This document shows, piece after piece, positions 2 through 50,295 of a stretch of 52,478 nucleotides of DNA. The translations under genes were made by a program, and so were the position numbers. The notes under the pieces were generated by a model. It was not told the origin of the DNA. It was given only the letters and a program-made list of their open reading frames with translations, and did no database searches. The DNA comes from Candidatus Peribacteraceae bacterium (GTDB lineage: Bacteria > Patescibacteriota > Gracilibacteria > Peribacterales > Peribacteraceae). The stretch covers positions 1 through 52,478 of the forward strand of contig JASMHZ010000005.1 of assembly GCA_030750465.1 (NCBI GenBank). The letters are read 5' to 3'. Numbering within the stretch: the stretch's first letter is position 1; each line of letters begins with the position of its first letter.

Positions 2-478
2 GAGGAAACTGGAGCAACTTTTCAGGAGAATGCTATTCAGAAAGTTAAGCACTTCCACGGACTTGGAGGAATGCCAACAATATCGGAAGACTCCGGAATA
101 ATCGTTGACGCTATAGAGAACGAACTTGGACTTCACACAAGAAGATGGGGGGCAGGACGCTCTGCATCTGATGAAGATTGGATTGAGTATTTTCTTAAGC
201 GCATGAAAAACGAATCAAACAAGAAGGCTGCCTTTATGTGCCATCTTGCTTACTTAGATCCAAACGGAGATCTCCATTTGTTTGAAGGAGAGTGTAAAGG
301 AGTGATAACCGAGGAATTGGAAGCTGATTATTTGCCAGGGCTACCAATCTCCGGATGCTTCCGTCCGGAAGGATTTGATAACGTGTTTTCTGCCTTAAAT
401 CTTGAACAAAAAAATAGTACAAGTCATAGGGGTAGAGCTACGCAAAAACTTAGGTTCCACCTTGAATCCTCAATGTAG
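2..478 (+). CDS. rdgB: RdgB/HAM1-like non-canonical purine NTP pyrophosphatase (5' truncated)
   Basis: The reading frame is open from base 2, so the gene begins outside the window. The visible part has the family order: a TGATFQENA-type segment (substrate loop), the D-S-G motif in SEDSGIIVDA, a GCFRPEGFDNVF segment equivalent to the GFGYDPIF region, and EKN-x-SHRGRA near the C-terminus (here EQKNSTSHRGRA). Known members hydrolyse dITP/XTP to the monophosphate and pyrophosphate, cleaning the nucleotide pool in the cytoplasm. The GYDP segment is poorly conserved (CFRPEGFDN), so specificity may differ. It ends at TAG and is followed by a strong hairpin shared with the convergent TrmB-type gene. 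Confidence 0.8.
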   Translation, partial: EETGATFQENAIQKVKHFHGLGGMPTISEDSGIIVDAIENELGLHTRRWGAGRSASDEDWIEYFLKRMKNESNKKAAFMCHLAYLDPNGDLHLFEGECKGVITEELEADYLPGLPISGCFRPEGFDNVFSALNLEQKNSTSHRGRATQKLRFHLESSM

Positions 479-18075: not shown

Positions 18076-20679
18076 TTAACCACCTATTCCAATCCTATCC
18101 TCGATCTCCTGATCAACGAATACCTTCTTTCGCCCATACTTCATTCTGCTGTATTCCTTAATAAGCTTTGCCAGTTTTTCATTTCGATCTGACTCATCGT
18201 AGATTGTTGTCAATGAAAACGGACGGGACTGGACATTGTTGATATTAAGCTTGGTATAAGCCGAGAAGTTTGGAATTCCAATAACATCCTGCTCGGAAAG
18301 AACCGGAGCATATTCCTTCGCCATGTACTCTGAGTCTTCTGCACCAATCTTGAAGCTCATTATAGTTCCAACGTTACCAAAGATTGCATCCCTCATTTGC
18401 GTACTCGAGTCTCCGTAGCCGGAAGTTTTCCCGACCAATTGTCCTATGTACTGGTGAGCCATAATAAGGGCAAGTTCATACTTTCGGGCTTCGGAAAGTA
18501 TTGTAACGAATGCATCTGTCACGAAGTTTTGGAACTCATCAACATAAAGATAGAAACGTTGTCTTTCTTCTCGTGGTATGTCAGCGCGTGAAAGAGCCGC
18601 CATATTAATCTTGTTAACAAAAATAAGTCCGAGTAACTGGGCATTTGTATCCCCGATTTTTCCTTTGCTCAAGTTCACAAGCAATACTTTCTTATTATCC
18701 ATAATCTCACGAATATTGAACGCGCTCTTTGGTTGGCCGATTATATTTCTCATCGTTGTGTTTGTGATGAACGGTCCGAACTTCGAGCTGAAGTATGGAA
18801 TCATTTCTTCTTTCTCGCGCTGACCCGTTTTTGCCATTTCATGTTCCCAGAAACTTCGGACAACCTTATTTCTGCATTTGGCTACTTTATATTTCTGGAA
18901 CTCTTCATCTACAAACATACGAGGGACATCCAGAATCGTTGCCCCCTCTTCTTCATCATCCATCAAAGTAAGACACCCGTTTCGGAAATAGTGCTGGATT
19001 CGAGGTCCGAATATTTCATTACCAAACAGTTTGATGAAGATTTGCATAGCATCCAAAGATGCTCGGTCTTTTTCTTCTTCGGATTTTACTTCAAGCAAAT
19101 TAAGTCCCATCGGCCTGTTAGCGTCTGCAGGATTAAAGACTACAATGTCTTTGGCTCGCTCCTTTGGAGAATGTGCCAAAGCATCTTCAATCAGATCGCC
19201 ATGAGGATCAACCATGCAAACCCCATCTCCGTTCGCAATATCTTGTCGTGACATGTACGAAAGCAACGTTGATTTACCTGAACCAGATTTTCCTATTACA
19301 TAATGATGACGCGTTCTGTCTTTCGGAAGGAACCTGATATTGGTTTCGACTCCGCGATACTTGTTAATTCCAAGAACAACTCCTTCTTTTGGAACAGATG
19401 GTGGAGGAGGCAAGACTTTGTATGTACTCCACTGAATAATTGGGATCTTGTTGTACCTGCTATCCGGGAAGTGAAAAAGGCCTGCCAACTCTTTCCCTCC
19501 CATCAAACACTCATTGGAAAAATATCCTCCAATTCTGTGCTTCCACAACCTGTGGAAAAACCATGCATTCCACTTAAGAGGCATGAATGGTATGAACATC
19601 CTCTTATTTTCGAGATAATTTCCATAAAGATCCTTATACGCATTGAACGCTACCTGCATGTTATTGGTTATTTCCATGGAACGATCATATGTTTCACTTG
19701 ATGCAAGAATTCTGATCGATGCGTGGTAGAAGTTCATACCTGCCTTTTCTCCCATTCGCTTGTAGAGCTCTTCTTCCGGCTGAAGCATTCGCACATAACT
19801 GTCCCCGCTGGAAGCACCAGGAGCATCTGTAGATGCAACTTTTGCAACTCCGCCAAGAAGTCCCAAGATCGGCCCAATAATTGGAATACCACTTCCCCAC
19901 TTCTCTTTTTCGCCTTTGAACTTTTTGGTTGCATACTGCCTTGCTTTATATGCCCATCTGTTAGAGAAGGACGGAGTCAGCACGACCTGAACTGCCGCTT
20001 TTTCTTCTTCTTTGAGCTTGCTTAGAACGTTTGCAATTCCATTCAAAGGATCATCCTGCATTTCGGTGTAGCACCTGATTGGATAATAGTAGTCTCTACT
20101 GAACGTCATGTGGTAGCCCATCAAAGCTGATCCTTTCGGGCATATATCTGGCGTTTCTTCCGGAGTAACTTCTGCATTCGGATAGTAGGAGGTAACTTGT
20201 TTCTCAACTATCGAAGCAAGACTTGGCTGCGTTACCACAAAAAACATCAATTGGTTTTTTTCCAGAAACATCTCGAAACTCATTATGATGTGACGGAAAA
20301 ACCAAAAGTGAATCATCTGCTGGAAGTTTAAATTTCTAACTTCCCAAAGAGCCCGGAACAGCTGTTCCATAATCGCTATCTTTTCCCTGAAGTCTTTCTC
20401 GGTCCTCTTTTCCTGATCTATCTTGCTGTCTCCTCGCGGGAGAATGACCTTGAGAGTTATCAGCTTCTTTGATTTATACCATTCATAATAGAAACGCCCC
20501 GCATATCTAAACAGTCTATAGAAAATATAAACTGAAAGAATAGTAATTGTGAAACCTACAGGATGTTCCATTATGAACTCACCCATCAACACCCAAGAAC
20601 CCGGATTTATCGCTGTTATTACAACGACGACGAATATCCATATACAAGGCCAGAATGCGTACCTTAGGAAGTTAAACAC
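18076..20679 (-). CDS. TraD/VirD4-like conjugative-type ATPase, membrane-anchored (paralogue 1)
   Basis: 867 residues from a GTG start. Two membrane segments lie near the N-terminus (about 8-28 and 39-57). Residues 90-440 are a CPR-type N-terminal domain. The ATPase follows: Walker A GKSGSGKST (about 463-471), PHGDLIED, FNPADANRPMGLNLLE, and Walker B LYVDEFQNF (about 711-719), then MAHQY. It resembles the TrwB/TraD AAD and DUF87 ATPases that pump DNA or protein in type IV secretion. No relaxase or mating-pair genes are seen. Its paralogue lies at 44.4 kb. With the pilin-like genes at 23.5-26 kb it may form a pilus or DNA-uptake machine; that is inference. A TATAGC box lies 4 nt before the GTG. 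Confidence 0.75.
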   Translation of the reverse strand: MFNFLRYAFWPCIWIFVVVVITAINPGSWVLMGEFIMEHPVGFTITILSVYIFYRLFRYAGRFYYEWYKSKKLITLKVILPRGDSKIDQEKRTEKDFREKIAIMEQLFRALWEVRNLNFQQMIHFWFFRHIIMSFEMFLEKNQLMFFVVTQPSLASIVEKQVTSYYPNAEVTPEETPDICPKGSALMGYHMTFSRDYYYPIRCYTEMQDDPLNGIANVLSKLKEEEKAAVQVVLTPSFSNRWAYKARQYATKKFKGEKEKWGSGIPIIGPILGLLGGVAKVASTDAPGASSGDSYVRMLQPEEELYKRMGEKAGMNFYHASIRILASSETYDRSMEITNNMQVAFNAYKDLYGNYLENKRMFIPFMPLKWNAWFFHRLWKHRIGGYFSNECLMGGKELAGLFHFPDSRYNKIPIIQWSTYKVLPPPPSVPKEGVVLGINKYRGVETNIRFLPKDRTRHHYVIGKSGSGKSTLLSYMSRQDIANGDGVCMVDPHGDLIEDALAHSPKERAKDIVVFNPADANRPMGLNLLEVKSEEEKDRASLDAMQIFIKLFGNEIFGPRIQHYFRNGCLTLMDDEEEGATILDVPRMFVDEEFQKYKVAKCRNKVVRSFWEHEMAKTGQREKEEMIPYFSSKFGPFITNTTMRNIIGQPKSAFNIREIMDNKKVLLVNLSKGKIGDTNAQLLGLIFVNKINMAALSRADIPREERQRFYLYVDEFQNFVTDAFVTILSEARKYELALIMAHQYIGQLVGKTSGYGDSSTQMRDAIFGNVGTIMSFKIGAEDSEYMAKEYAPVLSEQDVIGIPNFSAYTKLNINNVQSRPFSLTTIYDESDRNEKLAKLIKEYSRMKYGRKKVFVDQEIEDRIGIGG

Positions 20680-20783: not shown

Positions 20784-21830
20784 TCAATTATTGCAATCTC
20801 CAACTATCATCCTCATCTCTCTGATTCTTCCTTCTTTGGTTCCTACAAAAATTTTGTATTCCCCAATCTTTGAAGGTGTAAAGTGAAATCTTTCCTTAGG
20901 ACCTACAAAATCCTGCATTCTGACAAAAAAGCCATCCGGATACTTGATTCCTCTTACTACAAAAAACTTATTGGCACCAAGAGAAACCTGTTTGCCTACA
21001 GTCCAGGTATGTGGAACACCTCTGTGAAAACGAACCTGTTTTGTGATTCTTTTCTGGAATCTTCTTGTTTCCTGAACACATTTGTCCACATACGAATTAT
21101 CACCGAGTCTTTGGAAAGTAGCACTGACCACGCCTTGCCCGAGCGGTGCAATCTCTCTGAATGCAGCCAGGCTCAAATCCATATTCCTGCCGTCGACATA
21201 AGGGCCTCTGTCATTGATCCTAACTGTTACGCTCTTTCTATTATCCACATTAGTTACTTTGACCAGAGTATTGTGAGGCAGTGTTCTATGAGCCGCAGTT
21301 ATATCGTGCATATCGAACGTTTCCCCAAACGCGGTTCCATTTCCATGAAAATCATCTGCGTAGTAGCTTACCAAGTGGACTTGCTCCATCAGCTTCGAAT
21401 CCAATTTGCGCGCAAGTTTTATAACATCGCTCTGGGTTATATGCAGATTGCTGAAGTCATCTTTATATTCAATTATTGGGCACTCAGCAAGCATTCCTGC
21501 AATGTTATCTCTGCCCATTAAAAACAAATCTTCACGAACATTTCTGGATCTAAAGAGCCACAAAAGCGCATCTTCCATGTTTAGTGGAGAATCCGGATCA
21601 AATTTTTTTGCTTCATCAATAATCCCCCGCGTTGTCGCATAAGTTATTTCCGTATAACCATAATCATCTTTCTGGATGTCTCTGAATACGGATTCCCTCG
21701 GTTCAAAAGCTGAGCGTTGTATGCTGTTCCAAATAATAAGGAATCCTTCACGACGAGAAATGTAACCTTCTTCTGCGAAAACAGAAGCGGGTATAGCAAG
21801 CGTAACAATGAACAGAATTATTCTGGGCAT
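20784..21830 (-). CDS. SLH-like domain plus RlpA-like DPBB wall protein
   Basis: 348 residues with a signal peptide (PRIILFIVTLAIPASVFA). Residues about 20-100 look like SLH-type repeats (ISRREGFLIIWN, then VFRDI...YATTRGIIDEAKKFDPDSPLNMEDALLWLFR). Residues about 150-235 are a double-psi beta-barrel of RlpA type: VSYYADDFHGNGTAFGETFD, AHRTLPHNTLVKVTN, VRINDRGPYVDGRNMDLSLAA. The last ~100 residues are a beta-rich domain I do not recognise. RlpA proteins cut or bind denuded glycan. The SLH-like front would tether it to the envelope. Confidence 0.75.
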   Translation of the reverse strand: MPRIILFIVTLAIPASVFAEEGYISRREGFLIIWNSIQRSAFEPRESVFRDIQKDDYGYTEITYATTRGIIDEAKKFDPDSPLNMEDALLWLFRSRNVREDLFLMGRDNIAGMLAECPIIEYKDDFSNLHITQSDVIKLARKLDSKLMEQVHLVSYYADDFHGNGTAFGETFDMHDITAAHRTLPHNTLVKVTNVDNRKSVTVRINDRGPYVDGRNMDLSLAAFREIAPLGQGVVSATFQRLGDNSYVDKCVQETRRFQKRITKQVRFHRGVPHTWTVGKQVSLGANKFFVVRGIKYPDGFFVRMQDFVGPKERFHFTPSKIGEYKIFVGTKEGRIREMRMIVGDCNN

Positions 21831-21856
21831 GGATAAGTAGACTGAAGGCCCAGCTA

Positions 21857-21980
21857 ACAATTATCAATTGACACGATCTCTAGCTTCATTAGCTTCTAGC
21901 TTCATTAGCTTCTGCTAATTGTTATTCAAAGTTACCACAGTAAAAAGCTAATGAAGCTAGAAGCTAAAAGCTAATAAGCC
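21857..21980. repeat. AGCTAATGAAGCTAGAAGC-word inverted repeat
   Basis: TTAGCTTCTAGCTTCATTAGCTTCTGCTAA on the left, and AAGCTAATGAAGCTAGAAGCTAAAAGCTAATAAGC on the right. It lies between two minus-strand genes. The same word recurs at 25.0-25.1 kb. Confidence 0.6.
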
Positions 21981-29946: not shown

Positions 29947-31110
29947 TTAAAAAGCCTCCCTCCTCTTATTTCCATCAAACACCAGCAAAACCCCTCCAAC
30001 CAAAATCATCAGATTCCTCAAGTTCAATATCAAAGTAAACTTGAGTCCCTCCTGAGCTAGCAGCTTGTCGTAATAAAGAGGCCCTAGCCACTGTCTCGCC
30101 ACTCCCATTAGAACCAAACTTATAATCAGGCCCAAGGTGAATATGCTGGTCTGACGATTTCTGAGAGTATCAATGACAATTATTATCAAGATCGGATAAA
30201 ACCACATTACAAACTGCGGGGATAGTATCGGACTTGCAAAAACTATCCACATCATCGTAAGTGGAATCCAAACTGCAGATTTTTCTGACCTCTTCTTCCA
30301 AGCGAAATAATAAATTGCAAGGAGTCCCAAAATAAGAATAATAGTTGAGGCAAATGTAACTGAATTACCAAGTTCTGCATTATGATGCGCAACATGATGA
30401 AGTGCAGTCTCAACTTTTTCTCCGTTCAAGTTTTTAGCAAGCATGTGTATGCCTGACCAAGTACTATCAATTCCCACTCCCCTTTCGGAATGGTACTTGA
30501 GCATGTACTTCACATTCTCAGTTGACTGACTTATCCCCAATGTAAATATTGGAATAAGAACCGAAACAACAATTCCAACAAAAACACCGTAACTTAATCT
30601 TTTCTGGGCATTCTTTGGTGCGAGAATATAAAGAAGTGGAAGAAGTACAATCGGAGTCAGTTTAAGTGCGGATGCAAGTATCAAAAAGAATCCGCTGTCT
30701 TTCCATCTATCATTCAAGCTAGCTCTCCACGACATAAAGATCAGAAGCATTACAACAATATCAAAGCGCGCGACTGAGTAGTGAACTCCAATCAAATAAA
30801 TGGATACAAAAGTTGCAATGATCAGAATTGAAGCATCTTCGGTTTTACAAAATCTGTAAGCATACAGTGCCGCTCCAATCATCATTAGCCCCAAGAATAT
30901 GAGCCAAGCTGTTTCGAAGGAGAAACCTGGCAAGCTAAGAGCATAGAATAATGAGGAAGCCAGTGGCGGATATTCACTTGTACCAACTGACCCCGCAATT
31001 TTCTCGAACACATCAATATCATTAGAAAACTGAACATATGGAAAATATGTTGTAAGAATTGCTAGAAAAGCTATAGCCAGCGTCAGAGCAATAAAAAGAT
31101 GATGTTTCAT
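29947..31110 (-). CDS. GT87-like (DUF2029) membrane glycosyltransferase
   Basis: 387 residues, about ten membrane helices. The N-terminal FSNDIDVFEKIAGS...EYPPL has the acidic loop motif of GT-C enzymes (DIDVF, and YPPL, as in the GT87 family). Positive residues cluster on the cytoplasmic loops. GT87 members use polyprenyl-phosphate mannose to extend outer glycans; the substrate here is unknown. The start MKHHLF is supported by TTGCCA-N17-GATAAT with 6 nt to the ATG. The promoter shares its -35 with that of divergent hisS. Confidence 0.7.
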   Translation of the reverse strand: MKHHLFIALTLAIAFLAILTTYFPYVQFSNDIDVFEKIAGSVGTSEYPPLASSLFYALSLPGFSFETAWLIFLGLMMIGAALYAYRFCKTEDASILIIATFVSIYLIGVHYSVARFDIVVMLLIFMSWRASLNDRWKDSGFFLILASALKLTPIVLLPLLYILAPKNAQKRLSYGVFVGIVVSVLIPIFTLGISQSTENVKYMLKYHSERGVGIDSTWSGIHMLAKNLNGEKVETALHHVAHHNAELGNSVTFASTIILILGLLAIYYFAWKKRSEKSAVWIPLTMMWIVFASPILSPQFVMWFYPILIIIVIDTLRNRQTSIFTLGLIISLVLMGVARQWLGPLYYDKLLAQEGLKFTLILNLRNLMILVGGVLLVFDGNKRREAF

Positions 31111-35025: not shown

Positions 35026-36738
35026 CTACCTGAGTAATTCGAGAGCTTTAAGCATCTGCTCATCTCTTTCTGACGTATACTTAACAACCAAGTCCGGCCT
35101 AATTCCATTCTCATCTATTTTTTTGCCATTAGGAGTATGCCATTCTGCAATGGTTACTTTTAGTCCGGATTCGTCATTGAATCTAACAACCTGTTGAACT
35201 GTCCCCTTGCCGAATGTATTTACACCAACGATGGTTGCACGATTGTGGTCTTGAAGAGCCCCAGCAACTATTTCAGAGGCAGAAGCTGACCCTTCGTTAA
35301 CAAGAATTATCAAAGGAATATTTTGACGAATTGTTGGAGAATCGGTTGTAGCATCAACCCGCGTTCTGTCACGGGAAACAATGCTGGCAATATCGGTCCC
35401 CTTTGGAAGGAAATTACTAAGTACAACGTTTGCGGCCTTAAGAAGTCCCCCAGGATTTGAACGCAGATCCAAGATGACGCCGGAAGGATTTTTACTCTGC
35501 ACTTGTGCCATCAAACCTCTTAGCTCATTTTCTGTGGTTTTTCCAAACTGCAGTAGCTTTACAACTGCAATGGTCCCCTGCCATGCGATATCAATCTCTG
35601 GAACTTTAATCTCATCGCGTTTAACCTTAACTTCAAACTCATTTCCATTTCGCCTGATTGTTAAAAGAACCGTTGAACCCTTTGGTCCGCGAACTCTATC
35701 CACGGCTTCCATAAATCCTAAAGTAGTCAGATCAACACCATCAGCTTTTATTATTTGATCTTTAGGCTTTAGGCCTGCAGCCTCTGCAGGTGAGGATCTG
35801 AGTGGAGTGACAATAGTCAGAATCCCATCTTTTTGTTCAACCTGAGCACCAATTCCTGTAACAGTTCCTCTTATTTGAGTCTCTAAATTACTGATTCCTG
35901 CAGGGCGCAGGAATGTTGAATACTTGTCTCCAAGAGAATTCACAAGTGCTTCGGCGGCCATGTAAGCCGCCTTTTCCGGGTCGATATTTTCTTTGTAAAC
36001 AAAATTATCATTGATGTACCGCCATATGGTTTCCAAAATCTGCTGTTTAGGAAGACGTGATGTTGATGCGGTCCCAACTCCAGACAAAGTTACTTTTACA
36101 TATTGCGGTTTATTTTTGTCATTCTCAACCTGAGTCTTTGTTGTCTTTTTAGTTGGGGCAAATGTAGAAGACCTAATCGGCTGAAGCCTCTCGGGGACTT
36201 CTCTGTCGGGAACAACTTCACCTGTAACACGCCTAAGTAAGAGTTTTGCTTCGCTTCCCTTTAGCATCCTTCGAACTCCGAAGTGGCTTCTGCTCTGTGG
36301 AGTCATCCATCCAAGTTTTTGGGACACCGCAATGGCACCTGCTTCCGGTGAATTTTTTCTTACATCTCGAAATCGCACTTGATCATTGCTCTTCAAACTT
36401 TTTATTCTAACAAGAATAACTAAAGCCTGACCTCTGGTGATACCGCGTGCAAGTTGTAAATCATTTCCAAACATATCAAGCGCTCTTCTGTCATGTGCTA
36501 CTTCGACGTATGACCTGAGTGCTTTTGGAATTCTAAGATAAGGAAGTTGCCTTTTGCTTTTGCTTGTCTGAATACCCAGAGCTTTGATTGAAGCTCGCAC
36601 AAAATCACCTCGCGACACAACTTGGTTTTCTTTCGCATTTATATAATCACCCGCATTCCCAATTGCTTGAACTTGCGAGGGGAAAACAACCGTCAGTATA
36701 AAAATTGATAAAAATAGCTTAGATATATATCTGGTCAT
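35026..36738 (-). CDS. S41 carboxyl-terminal processing protease with N-terminal SLH-like modules
   Basis: 570 residues. A signal peptide (LFLSIFILTVVFPSQVQA) is followed by two SLH-like repeats (about 20-165: SRGDFVRASIKALGI...ITRGQALVILVRIKSL; FRDVRKNSPEAGAIAVSQKLGW...LKGSEAKLLLRRV). Then comes a linker, a CTP N-domain, a PDZ domain (GIGAQVEQKDGILTIVTPL, GLKPKDQIIKADG) and the S41 core. The catalytic Ser is in NEGSASASEI and the Lys in TFGKGTVQQ. CTPs trim exported proteins outside the membrane; the SLH part would tether it to the envelope. Confidence 0.88.
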   Translation of the reverse strand: MTRYISKLFLSIFILTVVFPSQVQAIGNAGDYINAKENQVVSRGDFVRASIKALGIQTSKSKRQLPYLRIPKALRSYVEVAHDRRALDMFGNDLQLARGITRGQALVILVRIKSLKSNDQVRFRDVRKNSPEAGAIAVSQKLGWMTPQSRSHFGVRRMLKGSEAKLLLRRVTGEVVPDREVPERLQPIRSSTFAPTKKTTKTQVENDKNKPQYVKVTLSGVGTASTSRLPKQQILETIWRYINDNFVYKENIDPEKAAYMAAEALVNSLGDKYSTFLRPAGISNLETQIRGTVTGIGAQVEQKDGILTIVTPLRSSPAEAAGLKPKDQIIKADGVDLTTLGFMEAVDRVRGPKGSTVLLTIRRNGNEFEVKVKRDEIKVPEIDIAWQGTIAVVKLLQFGKTTENELRGLMAQVQSKNPSGVILDLRSNPGGLLKAANVVLSNFLPKGTDIASIVSRDRTRVDATTDSPTIRQNIPLIILVNEGSASASEIVAGALQDHNRATIVGVNTFGKGTVQQVVRFNDESGLKVTIAEWHTPNGKKIDENGIRPDLVVKYTSERDEQMLKALELLR

Positions 36739-37030
36739 AATAGTTTTGTTGGTAGCCAAGGCATTGTAGGGAAGGTAGGGGTGACTAACAACCAACTACA
36801 GACAACTGACAACTACTTCATTTGTTGTGTATTAACTGTTCCGCTCCGAAGCGGAACGTCTTTTGGGGCTATAGCTAGGTAAAAAGTCTGAGTCGTTAAA
36901 AGTATTTTTTGAAGATGCATTGACTGAGGATTTTTCTCGATCACCATATATAACTACCGCCCCGCCACCCTGAAGCTTAACCCACCCCTGGGGGGAGGGA
37001 CCATCAATATGATGAAAATAAATCAGCTAG
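36739..37030. other. 292-bp gap with hairpins
   Basis: No gene is seen between the protease start and the PrsW-like stop. It holds a perfect hairpin GTTCCGCT-CCGA-AGCGGAAC (36838-36857), a word-like ACAACTGACAACTAC stretch (36790-36820), GGGGC/GCCCC arms (36875/36959) and a CCACCCCTGGGGGGAGGG stem near 36985. On either strand it could be a terminator plus leader of the protease gene. Confidence 0.4.
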
Positions 37031-44295: not shown

Positions 44296-44353
44296 TACAC
44301 TAAATAATCTATCCATAATAGCAATTTAATGCTAATATAGTATGATACCTCTA

Positions 44354-46834
44354 ATGAATCTACTTCCTGTTATTATCGTTTTGGTCCTACTGGCAGGAGC
44401 TCTGCATATAGCTCTCTGGCTGTCTCGCTTATGGCACGAAAAACGCATGGAGCGAGATCTGGTTTTTCTTCAATTACTAACTCCGAAAAAGGAGAGCAAA
44501 GAGGATAAAGAAGTAGAATCTGAGCAATTCTCTACAGGAAAAGATTTCAAAGAAGTACTAGGTGTGATGGAGCATCTGTTTGAGGCTCTGCATGGAATTT
44601 ATCTGACCAGAATAGAAAGATTTTGGAGGGGCCAACCATTTTTCTCGGTTGAGTATGCAGCACTGGCAGGAGAGATTTTGCTTTACGTAGTTGCTCCAAG
44701 AAAATTCGCACCACTAATAGAAAAACAAATAACCGCATTCTATCCGGACACGATTATAGATGTTGTCGAAGATTACAACATTTTTACAGAGAAATCTGTT
44801 GTATCAGTCCAACCACTTGTACCCAAAAAGAAGTTCACTTCTGTATTCAGAACTTATCAACAACTAAAAAGTGACCCGTTCAATAACATTACGAATGCAT
44901 TTTCGAAACTTAAAACGGCCGAGGGTGCCGCAGTACAAATTGTACTTAAACCTATAAAATCCGGTTGGCAGAAAAACCTCCAAAAAGAAGCAACTCAGTT
45001 AATCAATCCAAAGAAGCAACACGCAAAATGGTGGAATCCAATTTCTTGGGCTAGTGCCGCCTTTAGTATAATTACAGGAGGAGATGATCTTGCCGAATTT
45101 AAGGAAGCCGAACATTCGACCGGAGAACGCGTATCACAAATGGTAGAGGAATACAGCAAATCCATGGACGAGAAGGCCGGACAGGCCGGATTTACATGTA
45201 CCCTCAGGCTTCTTGTATCTACTGATTCTGAAACAAGATCAAAAACTATTCTGGAAACTCTTATCGCTGCTTTCAGACAATTTGATTCTGTCCGGGGTAA
45301 CAATTTTAAAAGACCAAGGATAGTTCAAACTACCGAGATAGTTAATAAATTCATACGCAGGTCTCCCAAACGCACCAAGAAACAATTTTTCATGAGCCCA
45401 AAGATGCTTTTGGGAACGAGTGAACTTACCGGCTTTTTTCATCTTCCAAATATCAAATATAACAAAGTCGAAACCATTAAGTGGCAGAACTTCAAAATTG
45501 CACCTGCACCAAAAGATATTCCGGAAGAAGGATTGTTCCTTGGGAACAATACGCACCGCGGAGAAAAGACCAAGATTTTCCAGAACAATGAAGACCGCTT
45601 CCGTCACTTCTACATCATAGGACAAACCGGTACAGGTAAATCATCCATTATGCAGCTGATGGCTCGTCAGGACTTTCATGATGGAAAAGGCCTCTGCGTG
45701 GTTGATCCTCATGGTTCGCTTGTAGAAGACCTAATGCCATATATTCCACGCGAAAGAGCTGATGATGTAATTTACTTCAACCCAGCTGATGTCGAACGGC
45801 CTATGGGACTGAACCTATTGGAAGGCAATTCTCCGGAAGAAAGAGATCTGATAGCTTTGGATGCTATGAACATGATGGTAAAGATGTTTGGAAACGAGAT
45901 CTTCGGTCCTAGAATTCAGGACTACTTCCGTAATGGATGTCTTACTTTGATGGAAGATGAAGAGGAAGGTGGAGCTATAACTGATCTTGTTAAGCTGTTT
46001 ACAGACGAAGAGTGGCAAAAATACAAAGTATCAAAAGTATCAAATCCGATTGTTAAATCATTCTGGGAAAAACAGATGGCACAGACTGGACAAAGGGAAA
46101 AGCAAGAGATGATCCCCTACTTCGCCGCTAAGTTCGGACAGTTCTACACCAATTCGTTGATCAGAAATATTGTGGGGCAAACAAAGAGCGCCTTTGATAT
46201 TGCCGATTGCATGAATTCGGGAAAGATCCTGCTTGTGAACTTAAGTAAAGGGCTTGTTGGAGACATTAACTCCCAGTTGCTTGGAATGATATTTGTTAAC
46301 AAAATCCAGGTTGCAGCTATGCGCAGACAGCAACAAAGCAAAGAGGAGCGAAAAGACTTCTTCCTGTACATCGACGAATTCCAAAACTTTGTAACTGATT
46401 CAATAGAATCAATTCTTTCCGAAGCCAGAAAATATCGACTTGGCTTAGTACTTGCTCACCAGTACATCGATCAATTGGAGAAGGATGACAAGATGTCGGG
46501 TAAGACGAGCCTTAAGGGAGCAATTTTTGGAAACGTTGGAACGATGATGTTTTATAAGATTGGACCGCAGGATGCAGAAGTATGTGCGAAGGAAATGGCG
46601 CCTGTATTTTCTGAGCAGGACTTGGTTAATATGGATGCCTTCAAAGGCTCGATGAAGCTTTGTATAGAAGGAAAACCCTCCAGACCATTCTCCATTGATG
46701 TGCCCCGCCCATGGCTCGATACCACCTACCCGAAAGACCCTCAGGCAGCCGAGGCATTCAAGCAGCTCAGCAGGCTCACTTATGGTAGACAGAAAGACTT
46801 TGTTGATCGTGAGATTTTGAGGAGAATTGGATAA
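44354..46834 (+). CDS. TraD/VirD4-like conjugative-type ATPase (paralogue 2)
   Basis: 826 residues from the ATG at 44354. One N-terminal membrane helix (LLPVIIVLVLLAGALHIALWL), then a CPR-type N-domain, Walker A GQTGTGKSS (about 423-431), PHGSLVED, FNPADVERPMGLNLLE, RNGCLTLMEDEEEGG and Walker B FLYIDEFQNF. It is collinear with the 18-20.7 kb paralogue but has one membrane helix instead of two, so the two may have different partners. The start is chosen because TATGAT (44341-44346) ends 7 nt upstream, and the ATG at 44342 lies inside that box. It is followed by small anchored proteins. Confidence 0.75.
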   Translation: MNLLPVIIVLVLLAGALHIALWLSRLWHEKRMERDLVFLQLLTPKKESKEDKEVESEQFSTGKDFKEVLGVMEHLFEALHGIYLTRIERFWRGQPFFSVEYAALAGEILLYVVAPRKFAPLIEKQITAFYPDTIIDVVEDYNIFTEKSVVSVQPLVPKKKFTSVFRTYQQLKSDPFNNITNAFSKLKTAEGAAVQIVLKPIKSGWQKNLQKEATQLINPKKQHAKWWNPISWASAAFSIITGGDDLAEFKEAEHSTGERVSQMVEEYSKSMDEKAGQAGFTCTLRLLVSTDSETRSKTILETLIAAFRQFDSVRGNNFKRPRIVQTTEIVNKFIRRSPKRTKKQFFMSPKMLLGTSELTGFFHLPNIKYNKVETIKWQNFKIAPAPKDIPEEGLFLGNNTHRGEKTKIFQNNEDRFRHFYIIGQTGTGKSSIMQLMARQDFHDGKGLCVVDPHGSLVEDLMPYIPRERADDVIYFNPADVERPMGLNLLEGNSPEERDLIALDAMNMMVKMFGNEIFGPRIQDYFRNGCLTLMEDEEEGGAITDLVKLFTDEEWQKYKVSKVSNPIVKSFWEKQMAQTGQREKQEMIPYFAAKFGQFYTNSLIRNIVGQTKSAFDIADCMNSGKILLVNLSKGLVGDINSQLLGMIFVNKIQVAAMRRQQQSKEERKDFFLYIDEFQNFVTDSIESILSEARKYRLGLVLAHQYIDQLEKDDKMSGKTSLKGAIFGNVGTMMFYKIGPQDAEVCAKEMAPVFSEQDLVNMDAFKGSMKLCIEGKPSRPFSIDVPRPWLDTTYPKDPQAAEAFKQLSRLTYGRQKDFVDREILRRIG

Positions 46835-47026: not shown

Positions 47027-47410
47027 ATGAAACACAGAATTCATACAAAAGGCTTAAGTCTCGGGATAGTTACAGGAATTGCAGTGGGAGCTCTCTCTGT
47101 AGTCGGATCCATTAATTCTTCGACTACTGCTTTTGTTGGAATCGATCCAAATTTCGCGCGCACTGGTGATCCGATAAACCAAAATATTGATATTAATGAT
47201 GAGAATCACAAAAAGAGGGATTTAATTAAGGGTTGGCCTCGTATTCAAGATAGGTTGCAGGAGCAAGGAAGCTACTACTGGAGAAATGGCAGAGGCAAAA
47301 ACAGTATTCCAAAACACTGCTGGGAACTAAGCCATGCCAGCCTTGCAAAATGCGTTGTGGAAGCAAGAGAGGGAAATATATATCGGAAACAGCAAACTCC
47401 AAGAAACTAA
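47027..47410 (+). CDS. small anchored two-cysteine protein A
   Basis: 127 residues. A membrane or signal segment (about 9-30: GLSLGIVTGIAVGALSVVGS) with a small-residue GxxxG-type pattern. AFVGIDPNF follows, then a charged middle part. Two Cys near the C-terminus are 10 residues apart (C-WELSHASLAK-C). I recognise no family. Three paralogues follow. Likely exported and membrane-tethered, with the cysteine pair outside, possibly forming a disulfide. Confidence 0.55.
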   Translation: MKHRIHTKGLSLGIVTGIAVGALSVVGSINSSTTAFVGIDPNFARTGDPINQNIDINDENHKKRDLIKGWPRIQDRLQEQGSYYWRNGRGKNSIPKHCWELSHASLAKCVVEAREGNIYRKQQTPRN

Positions 47411-47435
47411 AACCAATCATCTAACAAACTTTATC

Positions 47436-47783
47436 ATGTTCTTCAATCAGCAAACCAAAGTCGCTCTCCTGGCTGGAGTCGTGGTAGGAGTCGTAGTAGG
47501 AGCAGCGGCAGTAAAAACGGGCTCAACATCAGCATTTATGGGCACAAGACCAGATGAAGCTATTAAAATGGACTCACTCAAATGGATAGATGAGGAAAAT
47601 CCAAAGTACAAACCTGCTGCAATGAAACCACGAGATAACTTTGTTGAGCTTCAACCTTCCTCAATTTGGTTTGGACCAGCAAGATGCAGACAATTTCATC
47701 TTGGACCTAGATATACGAAATGCTTGCTTAGAGATCAACAAGTGGGGCCTACAAAGCTTCCTTATCCAGATAAGAGCCGATAA
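47436..47783 (+). CDS. small anchored two-cysteine protein B
   Basis: 115 residues from the ATG at 47436. The hydrophobic start LLAGVVVGVVVGAAAV is followed by AFMGTRPDEA, equivalent to AFVGIDPNF of A. The C-terminal cysteine pair is C-RQFHLGPRYTK-C (11 between), with RY-x-KC as in C. It lies 25 nt after A without its own promoter, so A and B are one transcript. The longer frame to 47334 overlaps A and is not used. Confidence 0.55.
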   Translation: MFFNQQTKVALLAGVVVGVVVGAAAVKTGSTSAFMGTRPDEAIKMDSLKWIDEENPKYKPAAMKPRDNFVELQPSSIWFGPARCRQFHLGPRYTKCLLRDQQVGPTKLPYPDKSR

Positions 47784-47904
47784 AGAGGAAACAGACGAAA
47801 CAGAGGAAGCAGAAGAGGCAGAAGAGGCAGAGGACTACGTTAAGTTGTTATCTGACATCATCTCTTCTGTTTCCTCTGATTCTTCTGATTCTTCTGTTTC
47901 TTTT
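47783..47904. repeat. polypurine/polypyrimidine inverted repeat (copy 6)
   Basis: Left arm AGAGGAAACAGACGAAACAGAGG with GAAGCAGAAGAGGCAGAAGAGG, right arm CTCTTCTGTTTCCTCTGATTC. It begins at the stop of B and ends just before the promoter of C. Confidence 0.75.
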
Positions 47905-47919
47905 ACCATTTTTAGCATA

Positions 47920-47948
47920 TTGTCTTCAATATCGTTTTGTGCTATATT
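47920..47948 (+). promoter_or_regulatory. promoter of small anchored protein C
   Basis: TTGTCT (47920-47925), 17-nt spacer, TATATT (47943-47948). The spacer ends in TTTTGTGC, like the TACATGC of promoter A. The leader is about 30 nt without a ribosome site. Confidence 0.6.
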
Positions 47949-47985
47949 ATAAATAACAAACATTTACTTCCTAACTGTCCCAGTC

Positions 47986-48387
47986 ATGAACTGCAAGAAC
48001 AAGCATAATGTCGTTGTAGCATCGCTAGTCGGTGTCATCATTGGTGCTCTTATCGGCGCCAGTACTATGCAGTACGCACAGCTAATCGCATTCAAGGGCG
48101 CAAATCCTAACTTCATGAAGAATTCTGTTAATGTACGTGCAGCAGACGGAATCGTTCGCGAGCGTAGCGACGCAGGCGTATTCCAAGTACCTGGCAAAGA
48201 AATTTCTGAGAGAGAAGCAAGGCTCAGGAGAGCAGAAAATGCCGGACACAGCGCTCCTCTCAATTTAGAAGATGAGAGTAAGGGCTGTAATCGGTTTGCT
48301 TTCGGCAGCGCTCGATATGCCAAATGCACAGTCGAAAAGCGCGAAAACGACATCGACTATCAGCAGTGGCCAAGTGTGCCTCATTAA
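47986..48387 (+). CDS. small anchored two-cysteine protein C
   Basis: 133 residues. NVVVASLVGVIIGALIGAST is the membrane segment, with the GxxxG pattern of D (GIVVGTLMGAGT). AFKGANPNF follows. The cysteine pair is C-NRFAFGSARYAK-C (12 between), with RYAKC close to RYTKC of B. The middle part is Arg/Glu-rich. It shares with D the leader words CAAA-ATTTA-TTCCT and the word QYA after the anchor, so C and D look like a recent duplication. Confidence 0.55.
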   Translation: MNCKNKHNVVVASLVGVIIGALIGASTMQYAQLIAFKGANPNFMKNSVNVRAADGIVRERSDAGVFQVPGKEISEREARLRRAENAGHSAPLNLEDESKGCNRFAFGSARYAKCTVEKRENDIDYQQWPSVPH

Positions 48388-48465
48388 GAAGAACCAGAAG
48401 AACCAGATGAGTTAGAGGAACCAGAGGATAATCCTCTGATTCCTCTGTTTCTCCTATTTCTTTTG
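48388..48465. repeat. polypurine/polypyrimidine inverted repeat (copy 7)
   Basis: Left arm GAAGAACCAGAAGAACCAGATG and AGAGGAACCAGAGG, right arm CCTCTGATTCCTCTGTTTCTCC. The arms nearly touch, making a compact stem-loop between C and D. Confidence 0.75.
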
Positions 48466-48478
48466 TATATACATATAT

Positions 48479-48507
48479 TTGCTTTTTTGCGTATATTATG
48501 TTATAGT
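48479..48507 (+). promoter_or_regulatory. promoter of small anchored protein D
   Basis: TTGCTT (48479-48484), 17-nt spacer, TATAGT (48502-48507). The leader is about 33 nt. Confidence 0.55.
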
Positions 48508-48547
48508 ATAACCAATACAAATATTTAATTCCTTCCTCCAAACAGTA

Positions 48548-48916
48548 ATGAAATACAACAGTAATGTTTCAATCGCTGTGCTCGCAGGCATCGTTGTCGG
48601 TACCCTTATGGGCGCCGGTACAAGCCAGTACGCATATGTTGTCGCCAGCAGCTATCATCCTAATGATGCAAAAGCTGGTGCAGTGGAATCTTACCACGCT
48701 GCTCCTAGTGGAGCCACAAGGTACTCCAACACACGTGCACTTCGCTTGAACCTCGACGAAGGTCTTAATGACGGGGCATTTCTTTACAGAAATCCCGATG
48801 TCACTGGACGCGAACGACCTGCCTTCGACGAGTCTAAGTACTCAGAAGTACGTGGTTGCGTTGGCACAAGCGGCAAACGCCGAGCAAGCTGCGAATCGGG
48901 TAATTATGTAAATTAA
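48548..48916 (+). CDS. small anchored two-cysteine protein D
   Basis: 122 residues. SIAVLAGIVVGTLMGAGTSQYAYVVA is the membrane segment. HPNDA replaces the PNF motif. The cysteine pair is C-VGTSGKRRAS-C (10 between), less conserved than in B and C. A terminator follows. No family recognised. Confidence 0.55.
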   Translation: MKYNSNVSIAVLAGIVVGTLMGAGTSQYAYVVASSYHPNDAKAGAVESYHAAPSGATRYSNTRALRLNLDEGLNDGAFLYRNPDVTGRERPAFDESKYSEVRGCVGTSGKRRASCESGNYVN

Positions 48917-48984: not shown

Positions 48985-49088
48985 AACAATCAACACGTCC
49001 GCCTACGGCGAACTGTCAACAATCAACTATTACTAAATATGTTGATTGTCGATTGTTGAGAGGTGCCGAAGGCACCGTGTAGATTGTT
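48983..49088. repeat. GTTGATTGTCGATTG-word inverted repeat with inner palindrome
   Basis: AACAATCAACACGTC at left pairs with GTTGATTGTCGATTGTTG and the end. It encloses the palindrome GGTGCC-GAA-GGCACC. It is like the element at 23871-24008. Confidence 0.6.
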
Positions 49089-50295
49089 ATCTCAAGGCAA
49101 CCGAGCTCACCGGCAATGCATGAATCAGATATCTCTGTGCAATCGAATCTCTGGGCCAACAGGTATATAAAATCAGCTCCTCTCCTCCTCCCTGATCTTG
49201 GAATGGTGTTGTATCGCTAGCCTGAATTGTCTGGTGCCTTGTTACTTCGTATGTGTGTAGCTTTCCGTCATAAGTCACAAATATTCTCGATCCAACTTCC
49301 AAGGTATTTACCGTTCTGAAGATTTTGGTGAACTTGGAAACATCCCAAGGGTAGCTGGAAGAATGCCCGTATATCATAATTTTGCCTCCTGCTCCCGGAT
49401 AACTAAACAGATGACCAAGTCCATGCTGAAGAGGCTGAAGTATACCATCAGGCGTAAAAGGATCGGCCGGATGAGTTACTGTCAGATCTTTAATTCCAAG
49501 AGTAGGAATAGAGACCGCAAAATGCTTCTCGGAAGAATGCTCGGGCAAGGCGGCTATCGAAGACTGGCCCGCAGATATTACTCGAACCTGAGGATTAACT
49601 CTTTGTGGAGCATTGATTCTCTGCTGAGGAGAAATAGGCCCCTGAGGTTCAGAACCGGAATAAGCGATGGCTTCTTCGGCCTGGATTTTATCTAAACGAT
49701 AAACCAAGTCGAAAAATCTTCCACGAGTAATAACTTGTCCAAGCTCCATTCTTCCCTGATGCATAATCAGATTCTTTGCAATTGCATCATTAATATATGG
49801 AGTGAACCACTCACCGTCGCGATTCTGCGCATAAGGAGAAAGCTGCGCACCTCCAGTTACACCCTCAAGCCCGTACGCTCGAAGAGCCATCACAACTGCT
49901 TCCTCAAATTTTAAATTATTGGCAGGCCTGAATGTTCTGTCTGGATAACCTGTGAGTATGTTTGATTCAAATCCTGCTTCAACATAAGGCGTATACCACT
50001 CACCTGATGGAACATCGTAGAATAGTGGAAGTGGCATTACATTCTGTTTGTACCAATCCACTCGATCGGGAACTTTTAATCCTGCAATTACCTTCAAAGC
50101 CTCGGCCCTGTTAAGAGCACTATTAGGCTTTCCCTCTCCTGTTGCATAACCTTGAATAACTCCCTTCGATCTTAGGTATGTAAATGCCGTGTCATAAGGA
50201 GTACCGACTGTATCCGAAAATCCGGCGGCATATGCAATGTGCGCAAATCCCAAAATCGCGAAAAGGCCAGCAAATAGTTGAATCTTTCTATACAT
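49087..50295 (-). CDS. SLH-domain sortase fusion
   Basis: 402 residues. A signal peptide (IQLFAGLFAILGFAHIAYA) is followed by three SLH modules (about 22-195: FSDTVGTPYDTAFTYLRSKGVIQGYATGEGKPNSALNRAEALKVI; FYDVPSGEWYTPYVEAGFESNILTGYPDRTFRPANNLKFEEAVV; DGEWFTPYINDAIAKNLI). A linker then leads to a sortase barrel (about 250-400): IMIYGHSSSYPWD (catalytic H311), LYTCWP (C379) and Arg388 in AQRYLIH. Sortases link proteins with sorting signals to the envelope; SLH modules usually bind wall polymers. A fusion would put the enzyme on the S-layer. TAAAAT lies 13 nt before the ATG. Confidence 0.85.
   Translation of the reverse strand: MYRKIQLFAGLFAILGFAHIAYAAGFSDTVGTPYDTAFTYLRSKGVIQGYATGEGKPNSALNRAEALKVIAGLKVPDRVDWYKQNVMPLPLFYDVPSGEWYTPYVEAGFESNILTGYPDRTFRPANNLKFEEAVVMALRAYGLEGVTGGAQLSPYAQNRDGEWFTPYINDAIAKNLIMHQGRMELGQVITRGRFFDLVYRLDKIQAEEAIAYSGSEPQGPISPQQRINAPQRVNPQVRVISAGQSSIAALPEHSSEKHFAVSIPTLGIKDLTVTHPADPFTPDGILQPLQHGLGHLFSYPGAGGKIMIYGHSSSYPWDVSKFTKIFRTVNTLEVGSRIFVTYDGKLHTYEVTRHQTIQASDTTPFQDQGGGEELILYTCWPRDSIAQRYLIHALPVSSVALR

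Follow-up and report, generated by a model that had tools for sequence, protein, structure and literature searches.

A conserved sortase of Peribacteria carries S-layer homology modules, probably in place of a membrane anchor

The window analysed here is an entire contig (C55, 52,478 nucleotides) of a Candidatus Peribacteraceae genome of 1.0 Mb that is 82% complete and consists of 64 contigs. It contains a gene whose product combines S-layer homology (SLH) modules with a sortase domain, hereafter the SLH-sortase (Table 1). A reading made from the sequence alone had placed a signal peptide, three SLH modules and a sortase with His, Cys and Arg in position in one protein, and this description held. 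The frame is intact, and both domains pass their Pfam cut-offs. The SLH match, on which the sequence-only reading had staked its claim, scores 60 bits and is thus well over the cut-off of 20.8 (E 2.2e-16), and the sortase match scores 57.5 bits (cut-off 26.6, E 1.4e-15); up to E 1 there is no further Pfam domain. Two SLH modules were called by profile and the third is backed by the predicted fold, and His311, Cys379 and Arg388 are invariant (64/64) in the window protein and its 63 relatives described below. The AlphaFold2 model has a mean pLDDT of 86.7, and its sole segment under 50 is formed by residues 227-247 of the linker, a region whose length varies among the relatives.

Table 1. The SLH-sortase gene and its parts in the window
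Feature	Coordinates	Strand	Remarks
SLH-sortase gene	49087..50295	(-)	402 aa, ATG to TAA, single intact frame
Signal peptide, residues 1-23, AYA↓A site	50227..50295	(-)	read from sequence
SLH pseudo-trimer, residues 24-203	49687..50226	(-)	Pfam profile and predicted fold
SLH module 1, profile call, residues about 26-66	50098-50220	(-)	profile search
SLH module 2, profile call, residues about 92-133	49897-50022	(-)	profile search
SLH module 3, residues about 150-203		(-)	by predicted fold alone; no separate profile call
Linker, residues 204-254 (51 residues)	49534..49686	(-)	alignment and model
Sortase domain, residues 255-402	49090..49533	(-)	Pfam and model
His311 codon (YGHSSSYPWD)	49363..49365	(-)	invariant 64/64
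Cys379 codon (LYTCWP)	49159..49161	(-)	invariant 64/64
Arg388 codon (QRYLIH)	49132..49134	(-)	invariant 64/64

With two narrow peptide patterns, a genome_contigs scan picked out 63 relatives (L047-L109); the titles of almost all their records name Peribacteria or Peregrinibacteria. Candidatus Peribacter sp. UBA2144 (L047) has an ortholog that is 96% identical. SLH and sortase profiles made from the window protein and these 63 relatives match 63/63 of the relatives; Pfam, run over the 64 sequences, called the sortase in 64/64 and SLH in 62/64 (SLH at E 0.001). The usual gene order, which we take to be ychF, the divergent SLH-sortase gene, a convergent TraG/VirD4-like ATPase gene, a response regulator gene, tsf and rpsB, was derived from 60 of the 63 loci, the SLH-sortase genes of the other three having been missed by the simple gene finder. 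The ATPase cluster is present in 52/63 loci and the YchF cluster in 51/63. In the window, the ATPase that most relatives have as a fixed neighbour of the SLH-sortase is encoded at 44342-46834, and Pfam marks it as TraG/VirD4- or HerA-like. Such a fixed chromosomal place fits the vertical inheritance of a core gene. A second ATPase of the window (18076-20679) is likewise large and of similar make-up. Four tandem small ORFs of 122-149 aa, alike in their N-terminal hydrophobic segment, occupy 47027-48916, and a family like them adjoins the SLH-sortase in 11 of the 63 related loci (19 copies); no significant NCBIfam match was obtained for the ORFs at 47986-48387 and 48548-48916, nor any Pfam match for the former. 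One record titled Kiritimatiellales bacterium (L050, JAIPIN010000023.1) holds a Peribacter-type locus with a 65% identical SLH-sortase and the same neighbours, and is probably mislabelled or misbinned.

The fusion is no isolated oddity: SLH and sortase share a single frame, unbroken as the sequence-only reading expected of related genomes, in 70 of 74 genomes of the family to which the window belongs (Peribacteria), where the gene is a core gene, and the fusion is found in three families of the class. The family count was made by architecture because some of the matches, which cover 74/74 genomes, are other SLH proteins; the 63 relatives overlap with the 74 genomes, as matching lengths of contigs indicate, so the two sets are not independent. 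Among family genomes with a completeness of at least 90% and a contamination of at most 5%, 55/57 carry the SLH-sortase. The gene is truncated at a contig end in G040 and absent from its usual place beside the ATPase ortholog in G029 (100% complete). In G031 (75% complete) and G032 no SLH-sortase gene was found, the locus being missing or, in G032, situated at a contig end. Beyond the family, samples of the phylum (379 genomes) and of the class (353 genomes) were searched. Among the matches listed, the fusion also occurred in family f10 and in one genome (G582) of family f164, and the further families of the class gave SLH-only matches; more cases of the fusion may exist there. In f10, 18 genomes of the class sample matched; 12 were read from the DNA, and SLH and sortase form a single frame in 12/12. 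The G582 gene (L239, G582:C1:3500-6800) has the same domain order with one in-frame TAG in its SLH part, and TAG is also the codon with which it ends; the gene is either broken or affected by a sequencing error. The genome_contigs scan also returned 10 SLH-less sortases, from Bacillota and Actinomycetota. As its patterns were narrow and missed family f10, fusions may also exist outside the class. Of 72,556 plasmid records 20 matched, none over 80% or more of the query, and the 15 matches listed were SLH-only or sortase-only.

An unrooted maximum-likelihood tree was made from a chosen subset of 65 sortase domains: 23 SLH-sortases of the window's family, 10 of f10 and 1 of f164, together with 15 and 6 sortases of two membrane types and 10 from other phyla. 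All SLH-sortases (34/34) fall into a single clade (96/89), in which the window's family and f10 each form a clade of their own, and which is separate from the two membrane sortases of the genome and from the sortases of other phyla. The tree is therefore compatible with one origin of the fusion. A very long branch carries one of the short membrane-type sortases (L136).

The predicted model was then compared with known structures. In VIA-align, its sortase part matched the class C sortase 3re9 with a Z score of 17.4 (130 residues, rmsd 2.3), 5cuw with 16.4, and class E and A sortases with about 15 to 16; the 50 Foldseek matches listed were sortases only. The general NCBIfam sortase model TIGR01076 was passed narrowly (39.7 against 39.35 bits, +0.35). 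It was the only one passed, and the protein fits none of the class models tested (C 38.4/160, D 40/165, E 19.8/160 and GN 25.8/158.25 bits). A sortase fold working as a wall protease, which trims surface proteins without joining them, would be in keeping with this lack of a class and with the Trp that follows Cys379 in 64/64 SLH-sortases. We nevertheless hold such a protease to be quite improbable, as the triad and the predicted fold match those of transpeptidase sortases and, in the second family, a protein with an LPQTG tail is linked to the SLH-sortase gene (see below). Strong purifying selection acts on the sortase part. A single pair of sequences, the window gene and its 96%-identical ortholog, was compared by a simple Nei-Gojobori count; dN/dS is 0.11 overall, and 0.20, 0.12 and 0.04 for the SLH part, the linker and the sortase part, respectively.

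The N-terminus, MYRKIQLFAGLFAILGFAHIAYA↓AGF, reads as a signal peptide with an AxA site. A hydrophobic signal-type N-terminus is possible from a start codon in 63/63 genome_contigs relatives, whose start codons were picked with such an N-terminus in mind. If this segment remained uncleaved, the protein would be a sortase held in the membrane in the ordinary way, and its additional SLH foot would place it beneath the S-layer. Sortase A is indeed described as membrane anchored in PMC3297441, and 15 of the 64 sequences have no strict AxA in residues 15-42, all 15 having a looser signal-peptidase-type site. However, A-x-A is rightly placed in 49/64, the segment of the window protein ends in AYA↓A, and the genome's membrane sortases are anchored in other ways, which makes the uncleaved form unlikely. 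A second hydrophobic segment (19-residue window, hydropathy of at least 1.6, after residue 40) was not found in 63/64 SLH-sortases, and the lone borderline protein reaches 1.62. The two membrane sortases that the genome encodes besides the SLH-sortase, of 417 aa (C5:1697) and 278 aa (C5:33541), have a sortase domain, as the SLH-sortase does, but differ from it by hydrophobic spans (1.78 and 2.62), by the lack of SLH modules and by their separate tree branches; the span follows a long N-terminal part in the former and lies near residue 8 in the latter. Since both have such spans and the SLH-sortase has no later one, the anchor seems to have been swapped. The same difference holds for the sortases of PF04203 (classes A-F and GN), which share the fold and the His/Cys/Arg triad with the SLH-sortase and have a membrane anchor in the place of its SLH modules. 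We conclude that the SLH-sortase is probably an exported, catalytically competent sortase in which the SLH modules replace the membrane anchor. Another PF04203 match of the genome (C11:51034) was set aside, being by the look of its frame an M23-type peptidase without sortase identity.

The SLH part is well matched by wall-binding domains of known structure. Predicted residues 24-207 superpose on the three-module SLH domain of Sap (3pyw) with a Z score of 19.7 (175 residues, rmsd 2.7), and the SpaA-SLH structures gave scores of 16.5 to 18.7, including complexes with pyruvylated ManNAc (6cwh, 18.7). Sap, SpaA, SLH-amidases and SLH-pectinesterases have the same three-module pseudo-trimer and signal peptide, and in the amidases and pectinesterases, as some plasmid matches are annotated, an enzyme is parked on the wall, as we propose here. 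The SLH-sortase differs from these S-layer proteins and wall enzymes in that the attached enzyme is a sortase and that its module 2 lacks the cationic residue of the ITRAE motif. PMC3297441 reports these cationic residues as necessary for S-layer incorporation. Arg63 of module 1 is kept in 64/64 sequences and Arg191 of module 3 in 62/64; in module 2 the corresponding position, 130, is mostly V. Some SLH-sortases are missing a large portion of module 1 or module 3, L103 retaining 28% of the module-3 columns. With module 2 lacking its cationic residue and other modules eroded, wall binding is perhaps weak in those members. A pyruvyltransferase-family gene (PF04230) is present in the genome and in 70/74 family genomes, PF04230 being a family broader than CsaB that also matches 8/14 control genomes, E. 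coli among them. Seven further frames of the genome have SLH matches. These frames and the pyruvyltransferase-family gene fit binding to the cell's own wall and speak against a docking of the modules on a partner (host) cell, or on wall material that has been shed, where the enzyme would act in trans during attachment. Although the Peribacteria genome paper (PMC4736985) infers that these bacteria live symbiotically and may have attachment proteins, we give such docking very little credence. In the window, SLH modules had also been suspected by eye in an RlpA-like protein (20784-21860) and in an S41 protease (35026-36795); Pfam gave no SLH call in either.

We then considered the candidate substrates. 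No LPxTG-type protein had been seen in the window, and the tail scan of its frames of at least 80 aa agreed, giving one match, without an LPxTG tail. The TIGR01167 match at 30844-30918 was rejected as a sorting tail; it sits within a polytopic membrane protein. The puzzle of the missing substrate was nevertheless an effect of the window, for sorting-type tails are present elsewhere in the same genome: two clear GDTGP tails on contig C13 (C13:309-401 and C13:6696-6794), and one NTGP and one LPDSG tail on contig C8. The classic anchor motif PF00746 stays below its cut-off in this genome (best 13.6/20 bits). Across the family, tails read by eye are of two kinds. The first is LPxTG, mostly following DUF11 domains; the second, 'P-x-GDTGPAAVAVIGAGAAAG...RRKKRK', lies at the end of long Cys-rich proteins that contain repeats of DUF4215 or TIGR02232. 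A conserved C-terminal GDTGPAA[VI]AVIGAGAAAG...RRKKRK was noticed on long Cys-rich proteins at L044, L179, L191, L200, L201 and other loci. This GDTGP tail has the look of a sorting signal of non-canonical type. PMC4736985 describes large, cysteine-rich proteins that are exported and, apart from these, a sortase A and S-layer genes. A GDTGP profile (A3) built from 11 rows matches 68/74 family genomes at E 0.01, with up to 14 matches per genome, a count that includes the source genomes and weak matches; five genomes that have the SLH-sortase (G005, G015, G026, G035 and G059) gave no GDTGP match at E 0.01. The membrane sortases could also process these tails. TIGR01167 is over its cut-off in 45/74 family genomes and in 9/14 control genomes. 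Because of this lack of specificity, 30 loci were read by eye, which gave 9 LPxTG or MPKTG tails, 2 LPASG, 10 [DE][TS]GP, and 9 others or chance matches.

A link between the SLH-sortase and one of these tails comes from the second family. In the window's family, no sorting-type gene turned up next to the SLH-sortase gene when its flanks were scanned for motifs. In 6/10 loci of f10, a secreted fn3 protein, orthologous from locus to locus and with LPQTG at its end, is encoded 3-8 kb from the SLH-sortase gene; of the other four loci, two reach the contig end first. In the L262 copy the N-terminal side is cut by the end of the stretch, so that its tail was judged by alignment alone. As far as the tails indicate, the substrates are most likely LPxTG-type proteins, with LPQTG in f10 and an LPDSG-like motif in the window's genome, and the Cys-rich proteins with a GDTGP tail are possibly further substrates. 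A broader proposal, that of a class of wall-docked sortases that assemble the surface of a CPR lineage from proteins tailed by LPQTG-type motifs in one family and by a new GDTGP motif in the other, and that perform the covalent step in the wall and not at the membrane, is put forward only tentatively, and we regard it as doubtful in this full form.

Sortase biology rests on membrane-fixed enzymes placed beside lipid II and their substrates. The conserved fusion, the lack of a second hydrophobic segment, the SLH fold and the pyruvyltransferase-family gene make a tether to a wall polymer, and not to the membrane, the most probable reading for the SLH-sortase. The protein would be secreted by Sec, and its signal peptide would be removed. 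As its fold and retained residues suggest, the SLH pseudo-trimer would bind a secondary wall polymer, probably pyruvylated. The flexible linker would leave the sortase domain mobile with the SLH part still bound, and this domain may thus reach the C-terminal sorting signals of exported proteins waiting in the membrane. By analogy with the sortase family, Cys379 would cleave the sorting signal with the aid of His311 and Arg388, and an amine, belonging to the wall or to a further surface protein, would resolve the acyl-enzyme. A wall-fixed sortase, if confirmed, would call for a different geometry and perhaps a different acceptor. The joining of the sortase to SLH modules suggests that a step of surface assembly takes place in the cell wall. 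These tiny bacteria are uncultured, and little work has been done on their cell surface, which presumably mediates attachment to other cells; the SLH-sortase gene and the associated tails are concrete, testable parts of their surface assembly. A sortase domain with an unusual recognition signal could also prove useful for protein ligation. The architecture is apparently undescribed so far: among the matches listed from the open-licence literature, no title or abstract reports an SLH-sortase fusion. Sortases of such lineages form the CPR family fam000526 (PMC6744442), and a 'sortase A' of Peribacteria is known from PMC4736985. The accessible parts of both sources mention no SLH fusion, and they may concern the same proteins.

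One genome bears on the division of labour among these enzymes. In G029, the sole sortase found is a 257-aa membrane type, and there is no GDTGP match. On the stretch G029:C1:43500-53500 (L248), this short membrane-type sortase lies 4.7 kb from a DUF11 protein that has LPETG at its end. This single genome hints that the short membrane sortase serves the DUF11-LPxTG proteins, the LPQTG and perhaps the GDTGP tails being left to others.
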